A DNA stretch of 14,706 nucleotides from Nitrososphaerales archaeon TH526 (lineage in GTDB: Archaea > Thermoproteota > Nitrososphaeria > Nitrososphaerales > Nitrososphaeraceae), in contig JAATVR010000085.1 of the NCBI GenBank assembly GCA_014523665.1, positions 1-14,706 of the forward strand, read 5' to 3'. Both the position numbers and the translations under genes were made by a program. Shown one piece after another: positions 5,164 to 13,004 of this stretch (its first letter is position 1; every line of letters begins with the position of its first letter). The notes beneath the pieces were generated by a model. That model was given only the letters and a program-made list of their open reading frames with translations, made no database searches and was not told the origin of the DNA.

Positions 5164-5563
5164 AGCTCTGCTTCACAGATTCAAGGCTACGAAAACGAAG
5201 CATCAATATCATTAGAACATATATTCTCAGAATGCTGGGTACAACAACACCATAATAAATTCAAACCGCCACTTGTTTTGATTTTCTTATCAGATAGTAG
5301 GTAAGTTTCCATATTGGCTTTAATATTATGAGGAGCTACCGACTTCATTGACTAGATGAAATACAGGCCATCGACTTGTCCATTCTACATGTTTAAGAAG
5401 TGATCTTAAAGGAGCATAAACAAAAATTGGCTTTCTTTGTCGCTTTTACAACTCTTTAGATACACTAGGAAAGCCGCGTACGGTCCAGGCAATACCGTAT
5501 GCAGTTTGGGCAAACGACATTGGATTGACAAATCAAAATTTAACCAGCTTGCGGATGAAAATG
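5164..5563. other. Gene-free stretch next to tRNA-Thr
   Basis: No convincing frame on either strand; the longest pieces are interrupted every 20-40 codons. The stretch abuts the 3' end of the minus-strand tRNA-Thr, where integrated elements would be expected, but I see no integrase and no second copy of the tRNA 3' end. Confidence 0.4.
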
Positions 5564-5637
5564 AGCCTTGACCGGGATTTGGACCCGGGACCTTTGCCTT
5601 ACCAAGGCAACGCTCTACCAGGCTGAGCTATCAAGGC
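5564..5637 (-). tRNA. tRNA-Thr (anticodon GGT)
   Basis: A full cloverleaf reads on the minus strand. The acceptor stem is GCCTTGA/TCAAGGC, the D-stem GCTC/GAGC with AGCCTGGTA loop, the anticodon stem TTGCC/GGCAA and the T-stem CCGGG/CCCGG. The anticodon loop is TTGGTAA (anticodon GGT, Thr codons ACC and ACU). The discriminator is T and CCA is not encoded. There is no intron. The T-loop is TCCAAAT, with C where U55 is normally invariant; all stems are otherwise perfect. Its 3' end faces the decayed region to the left. Confidence 0.93.
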
Positions 5638-5908: not shown

Positions 5909-5934
5909 GCGGGGGTTGTAGAGCCTGGCCAAAT

Positions 5935-5953
5935 TGTAATCACGTGCTTGGAG
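5935..5953 (+). other. Predicted non-canonical D-arm tRNA intron (19 nt)
   Basis: The central helix pairs CCAA (5929-5932) with TTGG (5948-5951). It is flanked by 3-nt bulges ATT (5933-5935) and AGA (5952-5954), and the endonuclease cut after the second base of each bulge gives exactly this intron. An inner GTA/TGC stem (5936-5938 with 5945-5947, one G-U pair) closes the loop. Ligation restores the D-stem T-A and G-C pairs at about positions 23/24. The outer helix is weak (only G5928-C5955). Confidence 0.7.
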
Positions 5954-5967
5954 ACGCGGGACTTAAG

Positions 5968-5983
5968 ATCACAGTTATAGGTG
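5968..5983 (+). other. Predicted canonical 37/38 tRNA intron (16 nt)
   Basis: Loop bases CTTA (5962-5965) pair with TAGG (5978-5981) as the 4-bp central helix. The bulges are AGA (5966-5968) and TGA (5982-5984), and the intact anticodon stem is the outer helix. Cutting after the second bulge base removes this stretch and leaves a 7-base anticodon loop. Confidence 0.8.
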
Positions 5984-5993
5984 ATCCCGTCTC

Positions 5994-6668
5994 TCAGGGG
6001 TTCGTGGGTTCGAATCCCACCCCCCGCATCAAATTGGTCCGATCCCTGAATTCAGAAGCAGATTTTATAAGATGTAAGTGAAATCTATGGTCAGAACCAA
6101 GTTCAGGATGAAAAGCTGTGGCAACAATGTTATCTTGCTTTACAGCTACAACCTTGTCCTCTATCTTTGCAATAACTTGAACCCCTTCCTCTGCTTTCGA
6201 CACTATGGGAGCTCGTATGAAAATGCCCTTGAAAGGCCTTTTTCCCATCATAGGGATTTCCATATCTGCCTCAAAGGAATCCTTTTGCCTTCCAAAGGCG
6301 TTTCTTTCTACTACTATGTTCAACAACGATAGTAACTTTTGTTTTGTCTGCCCAATCACTCTGTCATGAGCTCTAGTAGATAGGATAATCATACCTGCAC
6401 AAGTTCCTAATACTGGCATCCCCCTCGATACCACATCAGCGATTTCACGAAAAAGTTCCCCATTTACGGTAGCCAAGTTGCTGACTACGGTGCTTTCTCC
6501 ACCCGGCAAAATTAAACCGCTAATTCCGGAAATATCCTTAGCGTATCGAACAATCCTTACATCACCTCTCCTTCCTAAATAATTAAAAGCAGTCCTAGTC
6601 TGGGAAACGTTCTCCTCGACATCTCCTTGAATTCCTAGTACCCCTATTATAGGCCCATCATTCCTCAT
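5994..6668 (-). CDS. pdxT: PLP synthase glutaminase subunit PdxT
   Basis: PdxT is the class I glutamine amidotransferase that hydrolyses glutamine and channels ammonia to PdxS for pyridoxal 5'-phosphate synthesis (EC 4.3.3.6 complex). Visible motifs are Gly-Ile-Gln-Gly-Asp at 12-16, LPGGEST at 54-60, the nucleophile Cys90 in GTCAGM, and the His187/Glu189 pair in FHPEL. The family normally ends near residue 200, matching Ile-Lys-Ser-Ala at 201-204. Here 20 further residues follow, the last being [10 protein letters not shown], the typical translation of antisense tRNA sequence. The stop lies inside tRNA-Leu. The start overlaps the pdxS stop by ATGA, which implies translational coupling. Confidence 0.95.
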
Positions 6669-11113: not shown

Positions 11114-11764
11114 TTAGTCCCACTTACTCCAAGCGGCCATCCATCTGTAAGTCCATGTATTGAGTTTTGCACCCAAAGCTGCGATTGGCACAGATAGCAC
11201 GGCTCCCGCGCCAGCTCCTAAGGCTACTGGACTATTATAGAATTTACCGACTTGCGGTTCGATTGGGGTCATGTATGGAGGTAGTGTTGGTCTAGGATAC
11301 TTGAATGCCATTTCCAGTGGATCGCGTATGGTCAATAGGTTGATCATGTTAAACAGTGGCAGTGAAAGTCCAACCAATGTTCCTCCTATCAGTATCGCTG
11401 CGTGTTTGTTCCTTCTTGTTGCCCAGTACGACAGGTCCAGCAACATTGCAGATGGAATCCACACCGGTACCGTAATGAAGTCGTATGGATATCCAAGAGC
11501 AAACCAAGCTCCTTTCGCAACCCATGTATAAATTGTCATTATAGTGGCATAGTAGGTTGCTGTCCCCGGCACTCCCGTAAACAACATGTAATAGATGGCA
11601 CCCACAACGAGCATCGTTGATTGCGATATAGAGAACACGACGAATGAAGTCCACGCCCAATCAGTGTAGAATATGTAGTCTCCAGCATTAATAGTCAGCA
11701 GCGTGCTGTTAACAGCTACGACAACTATGAACAGATAATGCGTTGTGCGTCTTAGCCAGACCAT
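11114..11764 (-). CDS. amoA: Ammonia monooxygenase subunit A
   Basis: A full-length 216-residue archaeal AmoA, starting MVWLRRTTHYLFIVVVAVNS and ending AAWSKWD. Diagnostic stretches include INAGDYIFYTDWAWTS, YTWVAKGAWFALGYPYDF, FKYPRPTLPPYMTPIEPQVG and FYNSPVALGAGAGAV. Five to six membrane helices span the protein. It is the membrane subunit of the copper monooxygenase that oxidises ammonia to hydroxylamine outside the cytoplasmic membrane. I chose ATG 11764 over an upstream TTG (11770) because it gives the standard archaeal length. A GGAG motif lies about 10 bases upstream, and a strong TATA-like box lies about 27 bases upstream. Substitutions such as YWATRRNKHAAILIGG differ from Nitrososphaera sequences as I recall them, suggesting another I.1b lineage. 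Confidence 0.98.
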   Translation of the reverse strand: MVWLRRTTHYLFIVVVAVNSTLLTINAGDYIFYTDWAWTSFVVFSISQSTMLVVGAIYYMLFTGVPGTATYYATIMTIYTWVAKGAWFALGYPYDFITVPVWIPSAMLLDLSYWATRRNKHAAILIGGTLVGLSLPLFNMINLLTIRDPLEMAFKYPRPTLPPYMTPIEPQVGKFYNSPVALGAGAGAVLSVPIAALGAKLNTWTYRWMAAWSKWD

Positions 11765-11783
11765 TAACAACTTTCTCCTAGAG

Positions 11784-12415: not shown

Positions 12416-12449
12416 TTTGTTTCTTCTGGTATCGCTTAGAATCGACAAA

Positions 12450-13004
12450 ATGATTAACAAGGCTATAGTCTTGACAGGATTGGCTGCAGTATTAGTAATG
12501 TCTAGTGCATTCGCATTTATGCCTTCTGTAGAGGGACATGGTGTTCAGGCCCAGCTCCAGAGTAGGTTTGTGAGAATTCAAGATGAATCTTTTTCTGGTC
12601 AGACAATTCAGACTGGCGATGAGTTAACAGTAACTGGCACTCTTCAGAGCTTGGTGAACAGGCCACTGAGAGCATGGTTGTCGCTATTCAGTGAATCTAC
12701 AAATGCAGGCAATAGGTGGGAGTTTATAGCTCGTGACCCGCCCGGCAACGTCTTTGACATTGAACCAGAAGCTACGATACCATACTCACTAACCGTCAGA
12801 GCGTTAGAACCAGGTATTTATCATGTCCATACGCAGCTCAATATTCAGACAATTGGTCCAGGACTTGGTCCGGGACAAACCGTTCAAGTAACAGGCCAAC
12901 CAATATTCAAGCCGGTTCCATGGACGAATGTGACATATCAAGTAATATTGATTGGAGCAGGCTTAGGCGTAACCTTTGCGACTAGACCGTGGCAAGTTAT
13001 CTAA
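12450..13004 (+). CDS. amoB: Ammonia monooxygenase subunit B
   Basis: A 184-residue archaeal AmoB. A signal-peptide-like hydrophobic start (MINKAIVLTGLAAVLVMSSA, to about residue 29) precedes His30 in GHGVQAQLQ. Cleavage just before it would expose an N-terminal histidine. Together with His125 and His127 in the Tyr-His-Val-His motif, this matches the three-histidine copper site of bacterial PmoB. One immunoglobulin-like domain (residues ~35-160) is followed by a C-terminal membrane helix (VTYQVILIGAGLGVTF). The second membrane helix and cupredoxin domain of bacterial PmoB/AmoB are absent, as is normal in archaea. The gene is divergent from amoX-amoA and convergent with serS. Confidence 0.96.
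   Translation: MINKAIVLTGLAAVLVMSSAFAFMPSVEGHGVQAQLQSRFVRIQDESFSGQTIQTGDELTVTGTLQSLVNRPLRAWLSLFSESTNAGNRWEFIARDPPGNVFDIEPEATIPYSLTVRALEPGIYHVHTQLNIQTIGPGLGPGQTVQVTGQPIFKPVPWTNVTYQVILIGAGLGVTFATRPWQVI

Follow-up and report, generated by a model that had tools for sequence, protein, structure and literature searches.

A twice-interrupted tRNA-Leu(UAA) gene in Nitrososphaerales archaeon TH526 and the D-arm intron it shares with its relatives

The tRNA-Leu(UAA) gene of the archaeon TH526 is almost certainly a working, apparently single-copy gene with two bulge-helix-bulge (BHB) introns that are removed by proteins, and its D-arm intron is probably old and mostly vertically inherited. The gene lies in the window analysed here, a 14,706-nt stretch of DNA (contig JAATVR010000085.1). 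In the proposed pathway, both BHB motifs would be cut by a splicing endonuclease with a catalytic alpha and a structural beta subunit, after which an RNA ligase would join the exons. The product, an 85-nt class II tRNA-Leu with its D-stem and anticodon loop re-formed, would decode UUA (and UUG). The D-arm intron would be an old insertion, passed on mostly by vertical inheritance, lost in several lineages and not peculiar to TH526. We infer transcription, cleavage, ligation, the order of splicing and inheritance, the last from a boundary and a sequence that are shared among relatives.

Structure of the gene and its splice motifs

The exons, introns and splice motifs are listed in Table 1. Removal of both introns in silico produces a class II tRNA-Leu with a 14-nt variable region, a 3-bp D-stem (pairs 10-25, 11-24 and 12-23), fully paired acceptor and T stems, and A6028 as the discriminator (A73). 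ARAGORN reads this 85-nt product as Leu(taa), in agreement with the identity and class given to the gene by a first-pass annotation. The two introns proposed there, 19 nt at 23/24 in the D-arm and 16 nt at 37/38, were correct almost to the base. Its BHB anatomy of 4-bp helices and 3-nt bulges also stands, with one omission, the relaxed outer helix of the D-arm motif. That motif is a relaxed-type BHB because its adjacent outer helix is a single base pair, G5928-C5955. The outer helix of the second motif is the anticodon stem.

Table 1. Features of the tRNA-Leu(UAA) gene and other genes named in the text. Positions are those of the window, except for the last two rows, which lie elsewhere in the TH526 genome (G000).
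Feature	Position	Strand	Basis or remark
tRNA-Leu(UAA) gene, two introns	5909-6028	+	120 nt; 85 nt mature; sequence parse, ARAGORN
Exon 1: acceptor 5' strand, D-stem 5' strand, D-loop, position 23 (U5934)	5909-5934	+	sequence, parse
D-stem 5' strand, positions 10-12, in exon 1	5918-5920	+	sequence, parse
BHB 1 central helix 5' strand CCAA (exon 1)	5929-5932	+	sequence; bulge 1 = AUU 5933-5935
Noncanonical D-arm intron, 19 nt, position 23/24	5935-5953	+	parse, ARAGORN, covariation, orthologous inserts
BHB 1 central helix 3' strand UUGG (intron)	5948-5951	+	sequence; bulge 2 = AGA 5952-5954
Exon 2: positions 24-37	5954-5967	+	D-stem 24-25 = 5954-5955; anticodon-stem 5' strand = 5957-5961
BHB 2 central helix 5' strand CUUA (exon)	5962-5965	+	sequence; bulge 1 = AGA 5966-5968
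Anticodon UAA	5964-5966	+	sequence; ARAGORN on spliced gene
Canonical intron, 16 nt, position 37/38	5968-5983	+	sequence, parse, ARAGORN
BHB 2 central helix 3' strand UAGG (intron)	5978-5981	+	sequence; bulge 2 = UGA 5982-5984
Exon 3: position 38, anticodon-stem 3' strand, variable region, T arm, acceptor 3' strand, A73	5984-6028	+	sequence, parse, ARAGORN
Archaeal amoA	11114-11770	-	AmoA match, E 1.8e-118
AmoB-like ORF	12417-13004	+	marks ammonia-oxidiser window
tRNA-Leu(UAG), two introns (30/31 in anticodon stem, 37/38)	L142, G000:C812:7410-7553	-	spliced by hand
tRNA-Leu(CAG), two introns (30/31 in anticodon stem, 37/38)	L141, G000:C202:828-942	-	spliced by hand

Exon 1 ends in ...GGCCAAAU and exon 2 starts with ACGCGGG..., the predicted junction being 5934^5954. 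At their 3' ends exon 1 has T and the intron G, and at their 5' ends the intron has T and exon 2 A. Because these end bases differ, only one placement of the D-arm intron lets the D-stem form; shifted boundaries were ruled out, as every shift alters the product and breaks pair 12-23. The insert at 5935-5953 has the anatomy of a noncanonical BHB intron in three respects: i) it lies outside 37/38; ii) its BHB is of the relaxed type; and iii) its removal restores the D-stem. The insert at 5968-5983 has the form of a canonical archaeal intron, with position 37/38 and a 4-bp helix between two 3-nt bulges. A self-splicing intron was ruled out. The catalytic core of group I and II introns takes ~200 nt or more, the two introns are only 19 and 16 nt long, and neither gave an Rfam match to such an intron; an Rfam scan of the window at E values up to 1 returned a tRNA-Thr as its sole match.

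The host is an ammonia oxidiser, as the first-pass annotation had supposed, with an archaeal amoA gene in the window (Table 1). The soil setting, that annotation's word, fits the nearest named relatives. On the strand opposite to the tRNA gene, and overlapping it by 35 nt, is a pdxT-like ORF (SNO glutaminase, PF01174; 5994-6668, minus strand). Because its last residues are antisense tRNA, any annotation of its C-terminus should be checked.

Covariation across the D-arm intron

The D-stem pairs covary across the D-arm intron, and the gene is more than a chance resemblance. Gene copies were parsed from 70 loci, 66 of which gave a hit: 52 of these copies, counting that of the window, belong to the same family and 14 to further families of the order, and 63 of the 66 are distinct. 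The loci without a hit were two Leu(UAG) genes (L073, L074) and a Leu(CAA) gene (L076), all by eye, and L072, the gene in which was later read as a three-intron Leu(UAA) (L113). Every spliced copy gave an 85-nt product typed by ARAGORN as Leu(taa) (66/66), and no unspliced copy did (0/66). In all 63 distinct rows the three pairs interrupted by the intron (10-25, 11-24 and 12-23) are standard, and both partners have changed in 2, 12 and 13 rows, respectively. Paired cells amount to 98.8% overall; shifting the partners by 1-3 columns lowers this to 39.7-56.0%. None of 500 shuffles, which ignore kinship, attained the observed score for pairing or for covariation. Further pair types, one of five measures of covariation, do not rise above the shuffles, 357 of the 500 being as high.

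The splice motifs are conserved as well, the central helix of BHB 1 being paired in 98.0% of the cells and that of BHB 2 in 94.0% (63 distinct rows). Among the 66 copies the D-arm intron measures 14-27 nt and the 37/38 intron 12-41 nt. The interiors vary in both length and sequence, and UUGGA or GUGGA is kept near the 3' end; UUGGA can be followed by any base. The inserts are orthologous, and the D-stem is standard throughout the distinct rows. A decaying gene was ruled out by this conservation.

Gene number and detection

A covariance model built from the 66 copies was searched against the TH526 genome, a draft assembly of 833 contigs that is 96.6% complete. It gave 33 matches, one of them a Leu(UAA) at 132.6 bits. 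The next best was a Leu(CAA) at 87.0 bits, followed by Leu(CAG), Leu(UAG) and Leu(GAG). Of the 33 matches, 31 were read or typed with ARAGORN; the other two, C270 and C390, have scores equal to those of C269 and C167, which were read. A second, intact tRNA-Leu(TAA) gene, which the first-pass annotation had named as one finding that would speak against its reading if this copy were not transcribed, was found in the draft assembly neither by DNA similarity nor with the model (31/33 matches typed). The genome yielded five Leu tRNA genes, three with two introns; the Leu(CAA) gene, spliced by hand, has one. Across 10 of the window's ORFs, 53 of the 279 Leu codons are UUA.

Simple scanners fail on the gene, as had been predicted. 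The default ARAGORN and the Rfam tRNA model both miss it in the window, where their only match is the tRNA-Thr near 5563-5637, on the strand opposite to the tRNA-Leu. The default ARAGORN calls Leu(taa) only with both introns removed. When introns are permitted it also does so with the D-arm intron alone removed, and it misreads the full unspliced gene as Val(cac). Assemblies annotated with default ARAGORN or the Rfam tRNA model would appear to be without this gene, the sole UUA-reading one found in TH526.

Distribution of the D-arm intron

The twice-interrupted Leu(UAA) gene is ordinary for its lineage, an inherited oddity of an already recognised kind. Of 60 relatives from the same family, 51 yielded a full-length gene with two introns. 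The first-pass annotation had considered two introns in one tRNA notable for a soil ammonia oxidiser; because most relatives share the two-intron gene, this claim of rarity is unsupported. The gene was not obtained in nine of the 60 (G007, G013, G020, G025, G036, G039, G040, G043, G053), seven of which are 59-84% complete, G007 being 99% and G043 95% complete. A closer search of the latter two showed no Leu(UAA) or Leu(CAA) in the 14 matches read of 53. Several relatives have a match of another Leu-tRNA type (identified as Leu(CAA) in G000 alone) within a few kilobases of the Leu(UAA) match, so a single assembly gap could perhaps have removed both genes from G007 and G043; loss of the gene or a split gene may be alternatives.

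The order also holds Nitrosopumilus-like lineages. In a model search of 72 genomes, 30 loci, 60 regions and 4 more were read among the matches listed, so that a lower-ranking Leu(UAA) gene may have been overlooked. The 23/24 intron was read in complete genes of 11 of the order's 17 families (f1, f2, f3, f4, f6, f7, f9, f10, f14, f15, f17), and named records that carry it include Nitrosocosmicus, Nitrososphaera, Nitrosopumilus, Nitrosarchaeum, Nitrosopelagicus, Nitrosotenuis and Nitrosothermus. In f11 (L354, G070:C38:6236-6362) exon 1, a 20-nt D-arm insert and exon 2 were read, with the 3' end not closing; L354 perhaps carries a further intron in the T-arm. The Leu(UAA) of f13 (L200-L202) has an insert apparently at 21/22 (by eye) with an equally good product. 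The D-arm intron is absent from f12 and from parts of f10 and f14, and in f8 (L126, L134; G098, G081) the gene, by eye, lacks one in the D-arm and has instead one intron in the anticodon stem and a long one at 37/38. No Leu(UAA) was present among the sequences read from f5 and f16. Two genes have the D-arm intron only and no canonical 37/38 intron (L119, L120; G065, G074), and two of f7 have three, in the D-arm, at 37/38 and in the T-loop at 59/60 (L113, L117; G080, G066), the T-loop intron of L113 having a UUCG/CGAG helix (by eye).

A D-arm insert is also present in the tRNA-Leu(UAG) of f13 (L114, L115, L118; G072, G094, G085). Together with the differently placed insert of the Leu(UAA) genes there, it hints at spread between isoacceptors.

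A strict pattern run over 400 genomes of the class, with gaps seen among the matches listed, matched 234 at any gap of 6-36: 9, in three families, at the intronless gap of 6, and 225 only with a longer, intron-like gap. Neither form matched in the remaining 166, the pattern being strict and genomes incomplete. The 37 genomes of other orders in the class sample gave no match to the pattern, and four Leu(UAA) genes read from other orders (G114, G120, G129, G151) have no D-arm intron. In the phylum, 106 of 398 genomes match; the 68 in the class each have an insert, and the 38 outside it comprise 30 intronless, 2 with 2-3 extra bases and 6 with inserts, four of these six belonging to f29. In a contig scan, 80 loci of at least 119 stretches were examined and 51 parsed as complete tRNAs. 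At least one of the 51, L244 (a bacterium), is a chance hit, and L235 fits poorly. L210 and L238 (titled Nanoarchaeia and Woesearchaeota) are Leu(UAA) genes with a D-arm insert apparently at 21/22 (by eye) and a 37/38 intron.

Independent gains of the D-arm intron in many lineages are possible, though unlikely; the GGCCAA of the Leu D-loop, for instance, might have served as a ready-made BHB strand. Inserts with another sequence and an apparently shifted position (21/22, by eye) do exist in the Leu(UAA) of f13, L210 and L238, and there is another kind in L231 (titled Brockarchaeota) and the four f29 genomes. Against repeated gain, the 11 families of the order and, in part, f11 share one boundary and a nearly identical helix (CCAA, UCAA or ACAA with UUGG or GUGG). 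The intronless pattern matched 9/400 class genomes, in three families, and f8 is likewise without the intron (two genomes, by eye).

Persistence of the D-arm intron

An old, mostly vertically inherited intron may also have been kept for a use, and the two explanations are compatible and may hold together. The intron could spoil an attachment site for integration, or delay the modification or folding of the D-arm until splicing. The first idea is that of Randau and Soll, as cited in a passage of PMC4090602, and two genomes (G065, G074) do have the D-arm intron with no canonical one. Its interior looks unconstrained, however, and intronless forms exist. Moreover, in the portion of PMC6563490 consulted, the tRNA-targeting elements of Thaumarchaeota lie, with one exception, in the gene's 3' part, and 10 out of 39 target tRNA genes that contain introns. 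On balance, retention for a use is quite improbable.

A bolder version, which we regard as doubtful, is a single insertion before the split of the Nitrososphaera-like and Nitrosopumilus-like lineages that was selectively kept; the intron outlives the canonical one in some genomes and would therefore be functional. If true, the intron might, for example, hold back the folding or modification of the D-arm, or disrupt a site of integration.

Predicted splicing of the precursor

The TH526 genome contains two splicing-endonuclease ORFs (PF01974). The alpha-like ORF is nearest to 3p1z_B (E 4.1e-43), with which it aligns over residues 8-184 of 185. We take 3p1z_B to be the Aeropyrum pernix EndA; the K44, P45 and R46 named in the literature agree with its numbering. 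Aligned by eye, the ORF has K-P-K where 3p1z_B has K44-P45-R46, in the crenarchaea-specific loop. It also retains Y, H and K in the stretches aligned to 3p1z_B (by eye), presumably the Tyr/His/Lys catalytic residues of the endonuclease. The second ORF is a diverged member of the family, 25% identical to the alpha-like ORF, and the two may together form an (alpha-beta)2 endonuclease. The lysine of the K44-P45-R46 loop is reportedly required for broad specificity, according to passages of PMC6379350 and PMC12397907, and the Lys-Pro-Lys loop of the alpha-like ORF appears to resemble that of the relaxed-specificity enzymes.

Predicted folds speak against the proposed splicing. The minimum-free-energy fold of the window's precursor has neither BHB helix, and forcing both costs 5.2 kcal/mol (median 5.45 and maximum 17.7 kcal/mol over the 66 copies). 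Over the 66 copies, the full set of four BHB-1 pairs appears in 33 optimal folds and the full set of BHB-2 pairs in one. The folding test of the motifs is weak, because the accepted canonical intron fails it more often than the D-arm intron. Folding energies were dropped as evidence for the BHB, since the optimal fold of the window's gene is without either helix, and the case therefore rests on covariation and conservation.

That the D-arm insert stays unspliced, either retained as an enlarged D arm or sitting in a decaying copy with another supplier of Leu(UAA), would accord with the BHB lying outside the optimal fold and with splicing being deduced from sequence, but is scarcely credible when the D-stem pairs covary across the insert and are standard in every distinct row, the insert ranges over 13-27 nt in the copies read with the exons unaffected, no other Leu(UAA) was found in the draft assembly, and the gene recurs in 51/60 family relatives.

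Relation to known introns and significance

The first-pass annotation, which described noncanonical and multiple tRNA introns as known mainly from Thermoproteales, is not supported in calling the gene notable for its lineage, given the D-arm intron in 11/17 families of the order and the Thaumarchaeota introns already in print. The sections of PMC8450103 consulted count 107 noncanonical introns in the Thaumarchaeota genomes analysed there, and describe tRNAscan-SE 2.0 as including a BHB intron model trained on Thaumarchaeota and allowing two or three introns per tRNA. Those introns are likewise BHB introns outside 37/38 in the same archaeal group, and no difference from the TH526 intron was seen in that text. 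A more distant relative, 'Candidatus Caldiarchaeum subterraneum', has multiple introns in the same isoacceptor, tRNA-Leu(UAA), and introns in the D-, V- and T-arms of its tRNAs (PMC3293823, in part). D-arm intron positions 20/21, 22/23, 25/26, "etc." are given in a passage of PMC4090602. In the open-access literature, most subscription journals being outside its scope, no paper on a D-arm intron of Leu(UAA) in ammonia oxidisers was noticed.

Thermoproteales such as Pyrobaculum resemble TH526 in that a single tRNA may have two or three BHB introns, at positions outside 37/38. There, according to parts of PMC3218864 and PMC4033280, similar introns occur across diverse tRNAs and look transposed. 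In the order of TH526, by contrast, one intron position in one isoacceptor recurs (other tRNAs surveyed in part).

The gene is otherwise ordinary for the biology of these archaea, and the remaining interest lies in the age of its D-arm intron and in why it was kept for so long. Its distribution suggests that a noncanonical tRNA intron can stay stable across an archaeal order, rather than being recent and mobile as in Thermoproteales.
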